NCBI GenBank assembly: GCA_009783365.1
Contig: WRHG01000106.1
Span: 1 to 6,468, forward strand
Reading direction: 5' to 3'
From: Clostridia bacterium
GTDB taxonomy: Bacteria; Bacillota_A; Clostridia; Christensenellales; Aristaeellaceae
Length of the DNA stretch: 6,468 nucleotides
This document shows positions 1 through 6,172 of this stretch, piece after piece (position 1 is the first letter of the stretch; each line of letters starts with the position of its first letter). The notes beneath the pieces are model-generated. The model was not told the DNA's origin, made no database searches, and was given only the letters and a program-made list of their open reading frames with translations. A program made the translations under genes and the position numbers.

Positions 1-1459
1 TGGGTATCAGCTTCGCCAGAGCCGAGATGTCCTTGTTCTGTTCGACCATCGCCTTAGCGGTATTGAACACGATGCTTGCCTGATTGATGTCGGCGGCGCA
101 GGAGTAGACCTCGGCGCCCGCCTCGCCGTCGGCGAACAGGAGGTACAGCGCGATTGCCGCGGCAAGCTCGCTGTTATGGGTCGGGATACAAGAGCGCCCC
201 GCTAGATAGAGGCGGGACGGACTATCCACCTGGATACATTGCATGCCCGGATTGGTGATCGGCTCAATACGGTCGATGTAGCGGAAATGGCTTCTGGTGC
301 TTGGGTTTCGGGGAACTGACCGCGCCCGTTTACGCATTATACCCGACACCGGCAGATCATCAAATGCCGTAAACTTGACGTAGTACAGCGTTTCGCCCGT
401 AAGCTCTCTCCCGCATTCCGCGCTTGGCATTGTCCAGTCTGTGCGTTGAGTGGATGGCGCGGTGTTTATAGCGTTCTTAATGCCAAGACTCCACAGCAAC
501 TCGCTGACACTCTCCGAGAGCACTTTTTCCGTGGATGTATAGATCGCCTGCCCTTTCACGGTACTGATGGCGCCGTCCGAATCCATCAGGCCCTGCAGCA
601 GCCGAAACCGCTGCGCTTTGGACGCGCGAAGATATAGGAGCGGGATCACCTTGTCATGGAAGCTCACCAACAAAATCTCCCTCAATGCCGGGAAGCGAAA
701 AACCAGACTGTCGCCCACGTTATGCCATGCGCCGGCCGTTTCGTGGGTTAGCACGATATTGCGCAGGACAGCCGCCACATCATCTGTTTTAACGGTGATT
801 TCCGGCTTTGTGGCGTTGCCATTTCCCAGCCAGTAGCCGAACAGATACGGTTCCACTGGCAGCGCGGCTTCCGGGGTATCGATGGCTTCAGCAAGAGGAA
901 TCCGAAAATCAAGTGAACGCTTCCGGGATAGCGCAAGCGAACGCCTGTACAGCCACTCGGTAGTAACCACACCGCTTTTCAGCTTGTTCGCTGATCTCCA
1001 CTCGCCATGCCACTGATGGTTCTCGCCCGCTTCAATGACCGCGCCGTCCTTGAAGGTGATGCGGAAAGCCTGCTCCGAATCGTCCACATCACTTTTGGCG
1101 ATCACCCGGCAAGGCTGGCCCAACTCGTCAAATACAACATCACCCGCATTGATTTCACCCATTGTGACAAAGCCTTCCGGTGTGGGCAAAAGTGTGTCAA
1201 GGGACAATTGCTTGCCGTTCTTTTTCCCGACCTCAACGTAAGCCGTGCGGAACTGGCGGTACCCGTCAGCGTTGACGATGCCGAAGATGTCGCGGACAAT
1301 CTGCTCCTGCCACGGCATTAGCTGGAACGGCTTCCCGTACCACTCGCCAGTCGTATGCTTGAGCATCGAGATGAAGTTCACGGCGAAGTCCGCCCGGCGC
1401 TGGTCGTAATGGCTGGTGGGCAGCATCAGGGGCGTAGGCGTGTAAATGAAATCTGGCAT
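1..1459 (-). CDS. terL: Phage terminase large subunit, N-terminal part, interrupted by an intein
   Basis: This is the ATPase/nuclease motor subunit that packages phage DNA into proheads. I translated the minus strand from ATG at 1459 without meeting a stop to the window edge (486 codons; the C-terminal half lies outside). The start has AAGGAGG (1473-1467) seven bases upstream. Residues 1-83 form the N-extein, with FQLMPWQEQIVRDIFG and then YVEVGKKNGK, the first part of a Walker A-type motif. Residues 84-429 are the intein. Residues 430-486 resume with SELAAAIALYLLFADGEAG and EVYSCAADINQASIVF, which matches the ATPase domain of Terminase_1-type (PF03354-like) large subunits. Joining the exteins gives GKKNGKSELAAAIALYLL, a normal P-loop and following helix. 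The ATPase Walker B and nuclease domain are outside the window. Family assignment is from memory of conserved motifs, with no search run. Confidence 0.93.
   Translation of the reverse strand, partial: MPDFIYTPTPLMLPTSHYDQRRADFAVNFISMLKHTTGEWYGKPFQLMPWQEQIVRDIFGIVNADGYRQFRTAYVEVGKKNGKQLSLDTLLPTPEGFVTMGEINAGDVVFDELGQPCRVIAKSDVDDSEQAFRITFKDGAVIEAGENHQWHGEWRSANKLKSGVVTTEWLYRRSLALSRKRSLDFRIPLAEAIDTPEAALPVEPYLFGYWLGNGNATKPEITVKTDDVAAVLRNIVLTHETAGAWHNVGDSLVFRFPALREILLVSFHDKVIPLLYLRASKAQRFRLLQGLMDSDGAISTVKGQAIYTSTEKVLSESVSELLWSLGIKNAINTAPSTQRTDWTMPSAECGRELTGETLYYVKFTAFDDLPVSGIMRKRARSVPRNPSTRSHFRYIDRIEPITNPGMQCIQVDSPSRLYLAGRSCIPTHNSELAAAIALYLLFADGEAGAEVYSCAADINQASIVFNTAKAMVEQNKDISALAKLIP
173..1210 (-). 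mobile_element. In-frame class 3-like intein with LAGLIDADG endonuclease, in Walker A of the terminase
   Basis: The 346-residue insertion runs from Gln1 (codon 1210-1208) to His345-Asn346 (codon 175-173) and is followed by extein Ser. Block A is QLSLDTLLPTPEGF plus INAGDVVFDELG. Block B is GENHQW, with His65 and Trp67. The endonuclease has block C YLFGYWLGNG (123-131) and block E LLQGLMDSDG (204-213). Block F is QCIQVDSPSRLYLAG (324-338), and block G is IPTHN (342-346). Residue 1 is not Cys, Ser or Thr, but W67, C325 and T344 make up the W-C-T triplet described for class 3 inteins. In that class the block F Cys starts splicing in place of residue 1. The site is the usual kind for inteins: a catalytic loop of an essential ATPase. 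The reading frame is intact throughout, which suggests splicing is maintained. Splicing itself is inferred. Confidence 0.92.
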
Positions 1460-2317: not shown

Positions 2318-2737
2318 TCAATCCACCAAATCCGAATCATCAAGTTCGCCTGTCAGGACCATGGCTGAATACCGCTTGCGGTCCGCGGCGATCAAAGCCG
2401 CCAGCTCGTTAAAGCCCATCTCCAGCGCGATTTCATATACTGTTCCCGCCGCGAACATGTTGGTCCTCCCTGTGGAGGCCACCTGCCTGCATTGGTTCTT
2501 AATAACCTCTGCTTTGGTCAGCAGCCGCACCGAATCCACTCCGTAGACCACGCCAAGGGTTGGGTTGTTGGTCCAATTCACAAAAATAGTGCCTGCGTCG
2601 TCGACTTCGATGACCTCCCCCGTTGTGCCGGGCGGTATGCTGGTAAATGGATCCTCCATAGACACACATTCAACCTTTGCGCCGGGAGGGTATGCCTTCC
2701 GGATCCGTTCCACCTGCTCTTTATTCGGAAATCTCAT
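2318..2737 (-). CDS. DUF4314-like plus DUF5049-like phage protein
   Basis: A 139-residue protein with two recognisable parts. Residues 1-80 (MRFPNKEQVERIRKAYPPGA, PPGTTGEVIEVDDAGTIFVNW, then VVYGVDSVRLL) resemble DUF4314, a small probable beta-barrel domain of phage proteins. Residues 83-139 (IKNQCRQVASTGRTNMFAAG, YEIALEMGFNELAALI, YSAMVLTGE) resemble DUF5049. Neither has an established function. The start at ATG 2737 is set by AGGAGGTG (2752-2745) seven bases upstream. The frame is open ten codons further back to 2767, but that stretch reads through the ribosome binding site. It overlaps the preceding gene by 17 bases in another frame, so the two are probably translationally coupled. Domain names are from memory. 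Confidence 0.88.
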   Translation of the reverse strand: MRFPNKEQVERIRKAYPPGAKVECVSMEDPFTSIPPGTTGEVIEVDDAGTIFVNWTNNPTLGVVYGVDSVRLLTKAEVIKNQCRQVASTGRTNMFAAGTVYEIALEMGFNELAALIAADRKRYSAMVLTGELDDSDLVD

Positions 2738-3566
2738 CGTCCGCCACCTCCTCGTTCTTTTTGCCATTTTTCCAGGCCGAGTTACCCGGGAGTTTGGAAC
2801 AAAGGGCCTTCCTGGAATGCCGGTACTCCAAACCGATCATGCCAAGGGAAAGCAGGAAGCAGCGCATGGCGTACTTGGGATTGTCGGTCAACCCGCGTTC
2901 TTTGGCGGTCACGCGCTTCTTCGCCTTCGCCGTGCTGCAGAGCGCGAAAATGAACTGCACATAGTAGGCAGCATCGCCTGGGTCGTCGAGTGTGAACCAG
3001 GGGAACAGGAGCGTTCCCTCGCCCATCTGGATCGGCAAGTCCTCCGCGCCGAGGGCCGCCTTGATCAGGGCTTCCTTGGCGATGACCATCTTCGTCAGGT
3101 TGTCGATAGCCTCGGGAGTCATATTGTCAAGCGGGTACTCGACCGTGAGCCTGTCTGTTTCATAACCTTCACTGGACTCTGGGACATCGCTTGCCATCAT
3201 CCCGTTCTCGCCATGGAAATCTTCATGGCGCTCCCGCCCAAGCCCAAGTTCCTCGCGCTCAGTGAGGGTCAGGTCCCCGTGTGCCGGCGTCCCTTCCGTT
3301 TCAGCAGCCGGCACATTCTCGTCACTGTCCTCGATCGTGCCGGCGTAGCCGAGTTGCCCGAGCCTCGCGATGATCCTGGCGTTCGTTTCATCCGTGACCG
3401 GACCTTCGGCAGTAAACTCGCCCGTCCTGCTGATCGTGTAGCCGCCCACCAAGTGGTATGCCGCGGTTGGCATTCCGGCGTACACCGGGACCTGGCCGAT
3501 GGCCTCCCCGATCGCGTAGGCGAGCTCCTTCCGCTCTGATCCCTTGACTTCATAGTTGATTTTCAT
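2721..3566 (-). CDS. Conserved phage protein, family often labelled 'virulence protein'
   Basis: A 281-residue protein from ATG 3566, which has GGAGGT eight bases upstream. A longer frame to 3632 lacks such a site. The N-terminal part (about 1-80; MKINYEVKGSERKELAYAIG, then AAYHLVGGYTISRTGEF) and the C-terminal part (about 150-265; DNLTKMVIAKEALIKAALG, LLFPWF, KRVTAKERGL, KYAMRCFLLSLGMIGLEY) resemble a protein common beside terminase genes in gut and Clostridia prophages. It is often annotated 'virulence protein' without experimental support known to me. An acidic, low-complexity linker of about 70 residues joins the halves. No membrane segment or catalytic motif is evident. The gene is separated from the methyltransferase by 177 bases and overlaps the DUF4314-like gene. 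Confidence 0.85.
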   Translation of the reverse strand: MKINYEVKGSERKELAYAIGEAIGQVPVYAGMPTAAYHLVGGYTISRTGEFTAEGPVTDETNARIIARLGQLGYAGTIEDSDENVPAAETEGTPAHGDLTLTEREELGLGRERHEDFHGENGMMASDVPESSEGYETDRLTVEYPLDNMTPEAIDNLTKMVIAKEALIKAALGAEDLPIQMGEGTLLFPWFTLDDPGDAAYYVQFIFALCSTAKAKKRVTAKERGLTDNPKYAMRCFLLSLGMIGLEYRHSRKALCSKLPGNSAWKNGKKNEEVADDEISE

Positions 3567-3592
3567 GTCCGTGACCTCCGTTTTTGTTGATT

Positions 3593-3614
3593 CCAAAGGC
3601 TTTGTGGCCTTCGG
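3593..3614 (-). repeat. Hairpin in the leader of the gene starting at 3566
   Basis: The minus-strand RNA can pair CCGAAGGC (3614-3607) with GCCTTTGG (3600-3593) across CACAAA: eight base pairs, including one G-U. It ends 27 bases before the ATG and about 14 bases before the GGAGGT site. No T-run follows, so a terminator is unlikely. A translational effect is only possible. The rest of gap 3567-3743 is AT-rich with no gene visible. Confidence 0.35.
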
Positions 3615-3743
3615 TGTGTCACATATTCGCATAAAGGCACGGAATAATCAACATGTAAACATACCAAGGTTTTTGGCTGTGTTACGGCAAATACTGTTTA
3701 GTACGGACAATACCTGACAGGAGAAAAACACCATAATCAATCG

Positions 3744-4922
3744 TCATGTACGGTTCCGTTCGATCCCGGCGATGGCCGCGAACACTGGGTAGAATTGCTG
3801 CGGTACGACGGCGTTTCCAAGCGCTTTCAGCTTGTTCACCCGGTCCGGTTCGCCATCCGTTATACGTGGTATGGAATCCCAATCGCAGTCCCAGGCGCCT
3901 ACAGGTCGAGCCAGCCATCCGGGAACCCCATCAGGCGGATCACCCAAGCGGCGCTGAGCTTCCCGCCGGCTTGCGCCGGAAGCGCCCTGGCGCTCTGTGG
4001 CAGGATTTCCGATGTTCCCATGGCCCCTGGATTCAGGTTCGGGCTCCTGTAATCCCCCGCTTGAGGGGTCCGCCACATCACCGCGTCTGAAAGCGAGTTG
4101 CTGGGCGTCCTGCCTTTCGCCGCCAGCGTTTCCGGCTTCCTGCCGCCTTTGTATTCCCGTTGCGTAGGCGTCGGCCACATTTTCACCGCCTCTTCCAGTG
4201 AGGGTGAAAAGCCCGCGCCGCTGCTGCCTCCAATCTTGTTCGCGCGCGGGGTTGGCCAGAGCTTTTGTTCCCTCTGGACATCCGTCCATCGTCGCTCCAT
4301 CTCCGGGTCCACCTGCTCCCGCAGGTTGGATGGCCTCGCCCGGCCTTTCCGGGCAACCGTCGCTTGCCGCGCCAGCGCCTCCGGCGAACGTTGCGGCAGA
4401 TGGTCCATCGTGTTTGGCGTGGCCCACAATGGCGACGCGGTACCGCCTGTGCGCGGCGCCGACGCCGCAAGCTGGAAGTACGAACGCCCCTGTTTCGTAA
4501 CCTTCGCCTTCCAGGTCAGCCAGCACATCGTCGAGCGCCAGATGGATGATCCCATCAACATTTTCGCCAACAATCCAAGCGGGCTTGAGCTCTCTAATGA
4601 CGCGGAGCATTTCAGGCCAGAGGTAACGGTCGTCCGCTTTGCTGAGACGCTTCCCGGCAACGCTAAAAGGCTGGCACGCTTACGGGAAGCCGCCGGACAC
4701 GAGGTCAACCGATCCAAGTCCCGTGGCTTCACAAAAATCACCCCCCGTCAGCGTGTGGATGTCGCGCCACCGCGGGACACCCGGCCAGTGTTTTTCCAAT
4801 ACCTTTGTAGGAAAGTCGGCCCATTCACATTGCCCAACCGTCGTAAATCCCGCCCATTCAGCGGCAATGTCAAGGCCGCCGATGCCGGAGAACAAGGAGA
4901 GGTGCGTTAGTCTGCGTGTCAT
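3744..4922 (-). pseudogene. dcm-like: C5-cytosine DNA methyltransferase with an in-frame TAA at the catalytic Cys
   Basis: Enzymes of this family methylate C5 of cytosine in double-stranded DNA using S-adenosylmethionine. ATG 4922 overlaps the previous stop (ATGA), with AGGAGG and GAGGTGAA upstream. Motif I is LFSGIGGLD (residues 10-18). The frame reaches VSGGFP at residue 80 and then meets TAA (4682-4680). In the same frame it continues with Ala, then [10 protein letters not shown] (motif IV, catalytic Cys), [15 protein letters not shown] (motif VI), [12 protein letters not shown] (motif VIII) and finally [16 protein letters not shown], ending at TGA 3746-3744. Without the two-codon insertion (TAA GCG) the protein would be 390 residues with every motif present. 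A restart at ATG 4610 would lack the catalytic Cys. Either the gene is broken, or the stop is read through or hopped. The stretch between motifs VIII and X is dual-open (see the overlapping frame). Confidence 0.8.
3899..4741 (-). CDS. Overlapping minus-strand frame with W-x-T-P repeats inside the cytosine methyltransferase
   Basis: This frame is open for 280 residues within the methyltransferase, from GTG 4741 or GTG 4732 (GGGGGG stands upstream of the latter). Residues 68-100 read like a conserved block ([31 protein letters not shown]). Four repeats follow: WATP (106), WPTP (162), WPTP (189) and WRTP (223). It ends with [20 protein letters not shown] recall phage and metagenomic hypothetical proteins with just this layout (repeated LWPTPTxxD, then a GGxLNPxWVxxLMGFPxGW ending). 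Each repeat lies opposite an A-[ND/K]-type unit of the methyltransferase frame, such as VADA. It may be a real overprinted gene, or only the conserved shadow of the methyltransferase. The frame is undisturbed by the TAA at 4680-4682. Translation is unproven. Confidence 0.35.
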
Positions 4923-6172
4923 TTCACCTCAACCTCCTTCACCAGGTCGGCGTACCGGAGCGTCTGGCCACCGCGTTCACAGGCGATATCATCACCGCCA
5001 GTCTGTTTGTGCGCAGCGTAACGTCGTAAAATAACGCTGGCGTATTTCTCATCCAATTCGAGCATGAAGCAGATACGATCTGTCTGTTCGCAAGCGATGA
5101 GCGTCGATCCGCTACCACCGAAGGTGTCCAGAACGATACTGTTAGCTTGGCTGCTGTTGCGGATCGGATACGCCAGCAGGTCGAGCGGCTTGCTGTTTGG
5201 GTGGTCGCTGTTGCGCTTCGGCTTAGGATAGTTCCAGATCGTCGCCTCTGAGCGGCCGGCGTACCACTTGTGCTTACCGGATTTCAGCCAGCCGTAGAGG
5301 ATCGGTTCATGCTGCCACTGATACGGAGAGCGGCCCATGACGAAACTGTCCTTTGCCCAGATGCAGGTGCCGGAGAGATGGAAGCCCGCTTCCCGGAACG
5401 CCCTGCGGAAATTCTCGCCCTCGGTGTCGGCATGGAAGATATACGCGGAGCCGCCGCCCTCCAGATTTTCCGCAAGGTTGCGGAACGCTGAAAGCAAAAA
5501 GGTGTAGAACTGGTCCGCCTTCATGCTGTCATTTTTGATCTTCAGCCCACTCGCCGACTCAAACGCGACATTGTACGGTGGATCTGTCAGGACTAGGTTC
5601 GCCTTGCGCCCGTCCATAAGCCTGCGGACGGTATCAGCGTCGGTGGCGTCGCCGCAGATGAGGCGGTGACGGCCCAGTGTCCAGACGTCACCGGGCAAAA
5701 CGAAGGCCGCCTCTTCTAAAGCGGCTGTCAGGTCGAAATCGTCGTCCTGTACATCCTCTTCGCCAGTGGCGAATAGCTTCTCGATCTCCTCCGCGTCAAA
5801 GCCGGTCAATTCCAGGTCGAAACCGAGTCCTTTCAGGTCGGCGAACTCAATGGCAAGCATCTCCTCATCCCACCCGGCGTTCATTGCCAGCCGGTTATCC
5901 GCCAGGATGTACGCGCGCTTCTGCGCGTCCGTCAGATGTTCCACAAAGACACATGGGACCTCTGCGTACCCTTCCGCTTTCGCCGCAAGGATCCTGCCGT
6001 GGCCTGCAATGATGTTCAGGTCTTTGTCCACGATACACGGGCTCACAAATCCGAACTCCCGGAGGCTTGAGCGAAGCTGAAGGACCTGTTCCTTGCTATG
6101 GGTGCGGGCGTTCCGCGTGTATGGGATAAGGCGGTCAACAGCCACCTTTTCAAATCTCTCCGTTGTTTGCAT
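4919..6172 (-). CDS. ParB-domain DNA methyltransferase (N6-adenine or N4-cytosine), beta class
   Basis: A 417-residue enzyme that should transfer a methyl group from S-adenosylmethionine to an exocyclic amino group in DNA. Residues 1-90 form a ParB/sulfiredoxin-like N-terminal domain (NARTHSKEQ at 21-29, GHGR at 57-60). The catalytic domain begins near 160 (PGDVWTLGRHRLICGDA). Motif IV DPPY is at 197-200, and motif I is LDTFGGSGSTLIAC (348-361). Motif IV before motif I marks the beta class. HPNSKPLDL (324-332) is the usual conserved stretch ahead of motif I. All key motifs are intact, so activity is likely; the target sequence cannot be read from the DNA. The gene starts three bases after the preceding stop, with GGGGG ten bases upstream, and its TGA overlaps the next ATG. 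Such phage enzymes often protect DNA from host restriction; that role here is inferred. Confidence 0.95.
   Translation of the reverse strand: MQTTERFEKVAVDRLIPYTRNARTHSKEQVLQLRSSLREFGFVSPCIVDKDLNIIAGHGRILAAKAEGYAEVPCVFVEHLTDAQKRAYILADNRLAMNAGWDEEMLAIEFADLKGLGFDLELTGFDAEEIEKLFATGEEDVQDDDFDLTAALEEAAFVLPGDVWTLGRHRLICGDATDADTVRRLMDGRKANLVLTDPPYNVAFESASGLKIKNDSMKADQFYTFLLSAFRNLAENLEGGGSAYIFHADTEGENFRRAFREAGFHLSGTCIWAKDSFVMGRSPYQWQHEPILYGWLKSGKHKWYAGRSEATIWNYPKPKRNSDHPNSKPLDLLAYPIRNSSQANSIVLDTFGGSGSTLIACEQTDRICFMLELDEKYASVILRRYAAHKQTGGDDIACERGGQTLRYADLVKEVEVK

Follow-up and report, generated by a model that had tools for sequence, protein, structure and literature searches.

A phage large terminase is interrupted in its Walker A loop by a class 3 intein from a clade with asparagine at the first LAGLIDADG catalytic position

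Inteins located in the phosphate-binding loop (P-loop) of phage large terminases (TerL) are already in print. In the accessible portion of Kelley et al. 2016 (PMC5050341), TerL1-a inteins sit between the P-loop Lys and Thr, mycobacteriophages carry class 3 inteins with a Trp-Cys-Thr (W-C-T) signature, and two TerL inteins at sites b and c show cleavage. The available part of PMC6195587 describes DnaBi1, a class 3 intein in the P-loop of DnaB, and cites a RadA P-loop intein as disrupting ATPase function. In regards to endonucleases, excerpts of the respective papers describe PhoVMA, a reportedly inactive archaeal intein in which a block E deletion removes a catalytic Asp (PMC8966425), H-N-H nicking enzymes in introns that are known to drive homing (PMC3984707), and engineered LAGLIDADG nickases (PMC3943268). 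Here we analyze a 6,468-nucleotide stretch of DNA from a Clostridia bacterium (contig WRHG01000106.1 of assembly GCA_009783365.1; hereafter the window), in which positions 173 to 1210 of the minus strand very probably encode a class 3 intein that is mobile, contains a nested LAGLIDADG domain and separates the Walker A Lys from the Ser in a phage TerL. This intein is a new member of a described kind and its class 3 splicing part is ordinary. The noteworthy part is its endonuclease, where Asn occupies the first catalytic position.

The interrupted TerL open reading frame (ORF) covers positions 2 to 1459 of the minus strand, and its ATPase domain is recognized by Pfam (TerL_ATPase, 1e-08) and by the phrog_9 terminase profile (6.3e-35). 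A preliminary description of this DNA had seen no ordinary start-to-stop gene. An ATG is present at 1459 with AGGAGG a few bases ahead, and the seeming absence arises because the window cuts the gene at its left edge, where the frame runs off. The 83-residue N-extein (1211 to 1459) terminates in the Walker A sequence GKKNGK and is followed by the 346-residue segment, which the preliminary description had placed exactly, and then by SELAAAIALYLL. The first 57 residues of the C-extein (2 to 172) open with the Walker A Ser that would act as the +1 nucleophile. The insertion site is GKKNGK/SELAA, between the P-loop Lys and Ser, as in the P-loop TerL1-a type. The C-terminal nuclease region of TerL falls outside of the window; PF20441, which we take to be the TerL nuclease family, is listed for most full-length relatives.

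Within the intein, the N-terminal half of the Hint domain (approximately residues 1-105, positions 896 to 1210, blocks A and B) contains Gln1 (1208-1210) as well as the block B residues His65 (1016-1018) and Trp67 (1010-1012). The C-terminal half (residues 305-346, positions 173 to 298, blocks F and G) contains Cys325 in block F (236-238), Thr344 in block G (179-181), His345 (176-178) and Asn346 (173-175). Both halves align with the class 3 DnaB inteins 6rix and 6bs8, in agreement with the earlier observation that all splicing blocks are visible, and both are covered by phmmer matches to these entries in the PDB (3.9e-19 and 3.4e-18, respectively), a similarity that chance cannot account for. 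Of the profile types that the earlier description proposed to search, the endonuclease one is matched (Pfam LAGLIDADG_3, 5.9e-06), and no Hint or intein family is found among Pfam and NCBIfam matches at an E-value of 0.001. The predicted structure of the intein has a predicted local distance difference test (pLDDT) score of 95.6, its nearest structures are PI-SceI and class 3 DnaB inteins, and its Hint fold aligns with 6bs8 and 6rix.

We assembled 195 inteins having both junctions, which reduce to 164 distinct sequences (14 partial matches were left out). Besides the window intein, the set comprises sequences from virus and genome contigs, a single phage record and the 120 listed proteins from one of two protein searches. 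At an E-value of 0.001 these searches matched 1,844 and 3,335 related proteins, respectively, of which the best 120 each were examined. The rarity previously attributed to class 3 inteins was therefore overstated, also because both this class and TerL inteins at the P-loop are already described in PMC5050341 and PMC6195587. The W67-C325-T344 triplet named in the preliminary description has the right residues and is found, together with His65 and His345, in all 164 distinct inteins. A terminal Asn is present in 163 of these, the residue before the intein is Lys in 162, and the residue after it is Ser in 158 and Thr in six. The second sample, comprising the best 120 of 3,335 proteins, has the Trp, Cys, Thr, both His and Asn346 in every sequence (120 of 120). 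Position 1 varies (Q 124, E 17, L 13, A 5, M 2, and R, G and D once each) and is Gln in the window intein, which thus has no Cys, Ser or Thr nucleophile there. A normal inserted domain that is not an intein, or splicing by a class 1 or class 2 route, is very improbable. No evidence supporting either was found, the varying position 1 rules out class 1, and the invariant block F Cys and W-C-T residues match the class 3 signature as given in the available parts of PMC7664689 and PMC6195587. As a side observation, Cys34 (1109-1111) is kept in at least 42 of the 43 inteins of the clade for which DNA is available and is a possible second cysteine of interest. It does not coincide in position with the redox Cys48 of DnaBi1, which aligns in an ungapped alignment with Ala48 of the window intein, and redox control by analogy with DnaBi1 was rejected.

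Uninterrupted terminases also argue against a normal inserted domain. Among the best 120 (of 396) proteins nearest to the window N-extein, 115 have an uninterrupted GK followed by Ser or Thr; this is not a frequency since the length limits of this search exclude most full intein-bearing proteins. The other five comprise two intein-bearing proteins (the window itself and the partial P0161) and three that fall outside of the search pattern. The closest empty terminase among the matches listed, P0122, matches the window ORF at 76 of 83 positions in the N-flank and at 50 of 57 in the C-flank (~90%), so the close relatives lacking the insert at GK/S that the preliminary description called for do exist. 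A human-faeces phage genome (PV036457.1, Candidatus Heliusvirales) likewise has an uninterrupted TerL of 536 residues. With profile matches, tree, predicted structure and uninterrupted terminases in agreement, the identification of 173-1210 as a class 3 intein that interrupts the Walker A loop of a phage TerL is confirmed at the sequence level. The suspicion that annotation may miss the intein was partly right: no listed named relative is labelled as an intein (120 rows per search, most nameless and some names incomplete), those names being variants of terminase apart from one hypothetical protein and two bare database strings. Two of the listed intein-bearing terminases are unusual. P0161, a partial sequence and the nearest listed to the window N-flank, ends in residues that resemble adapter sequence, and P0314, with 1227 residues, is ~350 residues longer than most others listed and perhaps carries a second insert.

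In the proposed splicing mechanism Cys325, aided by His65 and Thr344, would attack the Lys(-1)-Gln1 bond, giving a predicted branched intermediate on the block F Cys. The N-extein would then move to Ser+1, and Asn346 would cyclise with the assistance of His345, so that the joined exteins would recover the continuous P-loop GKKNGKS. Before splicing, the terminase should not bind ATP normally. It is plausible that DNA packaging needs splicing because the RadA P-loop intein is cited as disrupting ATPase function and the same may well apply in TerL. Two points weigh against this overall picture, namely that P0065 has Lys in place of the terminal Asn and that both splicing and homing of the window intein are read from sequence.

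The LAGLIDADG homing endonuclease domain, recognized by LAGLIDADG_3, predicted structure and profile alignment, covers approximately residues 113-300 (311 to 874, minus strand, boundaries approximate). Intein alignments and the domain profile place motif 1 (LFGYWLGNG) at residues 123-131 (818 to 844) and motif 2 at residues 205-213 (572 to 598). In the profile alignment with PI-SceI, Lys187 in block D (650 to 652) aligns with Lys301 and Asp212 in motif 2 (575-577) aligns with Asp326, both being kept, and Asn130 in motif 1 (821-823) aligns with Asp218. We take Asp218, Lys301 and Asp326 to be the catalytic residues of PI-SceI. An acid in each motif is a central rule for LAGLIDADG enzymes. The window intein thus has both motifs and the LAGLIDADG fold and has a catalytic acid at the end of motif 2 only, a feature overlooked by the preliminary description.

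Asn at this position is the property of a clade. Among the 164 distinct inteins position 130 is Asn in 143, Asp in 16 and a gap in five, and the motif 2 position is Asp in 159 and a gap in five. This difference tracks kinship, as the Asn rows are at least 51.1% identical to the window intein (itself counted) and the Asp rows at most 37.6%; Asp also occupies the motif 1 position in seven more phage class 3 inteins that carry a name. When 63 inteins are placed on a quick tree with column 130 removed, a single branch divides 41 Asn from 22 Asp rows, with a Shimodaira-Hasegawa-like approximate likelihood ratio test (SH-aLRT) value of 100, which points to one Asp-to-Asn change on the intein tree. 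In the second sample position 130 is Asn in 119 of 120 and the motif 2 position is Asp in 119 of 120. Fifteen partial sequences show Asn in eight, Ser in one (P0161), Asp in two (the distant L084 and L087) and a gap in four. Asn130 is encoded by AAC in 33 and AAT in 10 of 43 sequences, and since both codons are in use, Asn has been maintained through synonymous change. The neighborhood of the block D Lys differs as well. Lys187 is kept in >99% of the Asn clade. Among Asp relatives the residue that follows it is mostly His or Phe (20 of 22), and among clade members it is mostly Val (104 of 143), the rest being varied with Phe once and His never. Weighing against a single, strictly held change are the program's warning on long branches, which are on the Asp side of the tree, and three exceptions: P0318 has Lys at position 130, P0161, whose terminase closely resembles that of the window, has Ser there, and P0256 has lost Asp212 to Ala. 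Neither the Asn clade nor a natural LAGLIDADG nicking intein was found in the open-licence literature, seen mostly as titles and the starts of abstracts, and as far as these searches reach the clade is an undescribed variant.

Where an organism is named, this clade is mainly found in phages and prophages of Firmicutes, and named hosts of its members include Clostridia, Ruminococcus, Acetobacterium, Allobaculum, Lactococcus and Mobiluncus. The Asn clade was met only in prophage, metagenome and virus-contig sequences; the 430 matching records in the phage collection are all <60% identical to the intein (34.9% for the best-ranked). Its distribution was assessed with terminases fetched by their C-exteins using two queries, both from intein-bearing terminases (best 80 of at least 600 per scan). 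Among the 160 loci obtained (some contigs twice) 129 are classifiable, seven with the intein and 122 empty, or five and 103 when counted by distinct C-extein. On a terminase tree of 146 distinct rows, including 38 intein-bearing rows added from intein searches (34 full and four mini), intein presence requires at least 21 changes, nine of them forced by well-supported branches, as compared to a mean of ~37 when presence is shuffled. This indicates that the distribution is clustered but patchy. (A first extein tree with eight changes was dropped as a measure of mobility, as separate searches had supplied its rows with and without the intein.) An empty terminase with at least 90% C-extein identity exists for 16 of 43 intein-bearing terminases. 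The nearest intein and nearest extein are different loci in 16 of 36 cases, and synonymous divergence is lower in the intein than in the C-extein in 12 of 16 close clade pairs, equal in one and higher in three. The N-flank matches the intein in similarity in L044/L047 and L021/L050, with a less similar C-flank, and identity profiles are mosaic in L053/L056, L028/L029 and L045/L025. L028 and L029 belong, with L030, to a single Allobaculum mucilyticum genome that has three intein-bearing terminases with mosaic identity blocks between the copies; in another Allobaculum (sp. Allo2, L036) the intein frame is broken inside the endonuclease.

These results support transfer of the intein among related terminases, and we suggest that it passes by a homing-like route with the nuclease as a putative driver. 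Several observations weigh against that route. Specifically, 31 of the 160 loci are unclassifiable, and 38 of the 43 intein-bearing tree rows derive from intein searches. At the amino acid level it is the exteins that are the more similar in most nearest pairs; exceptions include L044/L047 (intein 97%, extein 83%) and L017/L027 (intein 77%, extein 63%). Together with the three close pairs whose inteins are the more diverged at silent sites, this means that evidence of recent transfer is not seen in every pair. No co-conversion footprint was seen in five intein/empty pairs, where nucleotide identity shows no steady rise towards the insertion. Finally, ordinary phage recombination would be another way for the intein segment to move.

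The endonuclease domain is under purifying selection, with a constraint about that of the N-terminal splicing half. With the Nei-Gojobori method, taken as a ratio of sums for the 17 pairs whose whole-intein synonymous divergence (dS) lies at 0.05-1.0, the ratio of nonsynonymous to synonymous divergence (dN/dS) is 0.087 for the endonuclease, 0.074 for the N-terminal and 0.038 for the C-terminal splicing half, as well as 0.044 for the C-extein (16 pairs); these pairs share sequences and hence are not independent, which tempers the conclusion. The two halves of the endonuclease domain give 0.083 and 0.089. Because purifying selection persists despite the Asp-to-Asn change, the Asn-clade domain most likely still does something. 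It would probably bind DNA, with cutting or nicking of the empty site by way of an altered active site 1. The clade can thus be described as an intein family that is widespread and apparently mobile, and in which half of the active site has been altered and maintained.

One alternative, which we regard as doubtful though serious, is that Asn130 abolishes cutting throughout the clade, leaving the domain as a structural or DNA-binding part and spread to ordinary phage recombination alone. The inactivity of PhoVMA, described in the available part of PMC8966425, is in line with this, and the mosaic loci are explained by ordinary recombination. Five natural mini-inteins (L013, L070, L073, L077 and L078) also fit, having the domain deleted at the same insertion site with every splicing residue (W, C, T, H and N) kept. 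By splicing domain L013 is nearest to P0097, L070 to P0011, and L073 and L077 to L066, with L078 having no clear relative; since these nearest relatives differ, the domain would have been lost at least three times. If these mini-inteins are functional then the domain is not simply required for splicing, which also counts against a dead enzyme because something other than splicing would then be keeping the domain elsewhere. Equally at odds with a dead enzyme are the similar dN/dS of the domain and the N-terminal splicing half, the presence of Asp212 in all 159 sequences that have the motif, the near-invariant Lys187, and the patchy distribution among terminases that are >90% identical.

That the domain remains a normal double-strand homing endonuclease, with Asn tolerated through other changes in active site 1, we consider unlikely. 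Strong selection on both domain halves and the patchy distribution are as this reading predicts, and because the residue after Lys187 has shifted too, active site 1 appears to be remodelled and not merely broken. Against it, no LAGLIDADG enzyme active with Asn at the motif 1 position was found in the open-licence literature, and PhoVMA, having lost such an Asp, is inactive. A slightly less likely candidate is a natural LAGLIDADG homing enzyme that nicks one strand with its one intact catalytic acid, has been selected since the common ancestor of the clade, and spreads phage inteins. In general, the inactivity of PhoVMA favours a dead binder, and selection together with spread favours a tolerant nuclease or a nicking enzyme; nicking, full cutting and no cutting are indistinguishable from sequence. 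Note that Asn130 is followed by Gly131, and Asn-Gly pairs are prone to spontaneous deamidation, so part of the enzyme could mature to the acid over time.

If the Asn enzymes do drive homing, then a central LAGLIDADG rule gets a large natural exception, and selfish genes that may nick rather than break DNA could be set directly beside Asp relatives found in the same host gene. Dead enzymes would mean that phage inteins in their hundreds last and spread with no functional endonuclease, a finding of relevance to the model of the homing cycle.

In regards to the remainder of the window, a ParB-like gene and a DNA methyltransferase precede TerL both here and in the Candidatus Heliusvirales phage PV036457.1. 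A C5-cytosine methyltransferase is spread over two minus-strand ORFs (4680-4922 and 3744-4610) that match positions 2-70 and 95-164 of the Pfam DNA_methylase family, indicating that its reading frame is interrupted; the methyltransferase at the matching place in PV036457.1 is annotated as a single coding sequence. Neighbors at 2318-3632 and 4919-6172 (minus strand) include an amidoligase-like PHROG match, a DUF4314/DUF5049 protein and a ParB-N/N6-N4 methyltransferase fusion.

Among known systems, the intein in gp10 of Mycobacterium phage Rakim (L014) shares a phage TerL host, an insertion between the P-loop Lys and Ser/Thr, the W-C-T residues and the same LAGLIDADG layout. Judged from its site, it would be the TerL1-a allele of PMC5050341. 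It differs in having only 31% identity to the window intein, in its hosts, in having Asp in place of Asn at the first LAGLIDADG catalytic position, and in having KHVP in block D. DnaBi1 of Mycobacterium smegmatis (6bs8) is likewise a class 3 intein with a P-loop insertion and, unlike the window intein, has no endonuclease, as given in the available part of PMC6195587. Together with DnaB1 of M. chimaera (6rix), a 145-residue chain also without an endonuclease, it matches the Hint fold at 1.4-1.7 Å with 38-39% identity over the splicing domain, the difference being the helicase host of both. PI-SceI, the yeast VMA intein, is a class 1 intein and differs in having both Asp residues. Finally, when compared with PhoVMA/TliVMA as described in the accessible portion of PMC8966425, PhoVMA is a single degenerate case that arose by deletion, whereas the window intein belongs to a whole clade that holds Asn.
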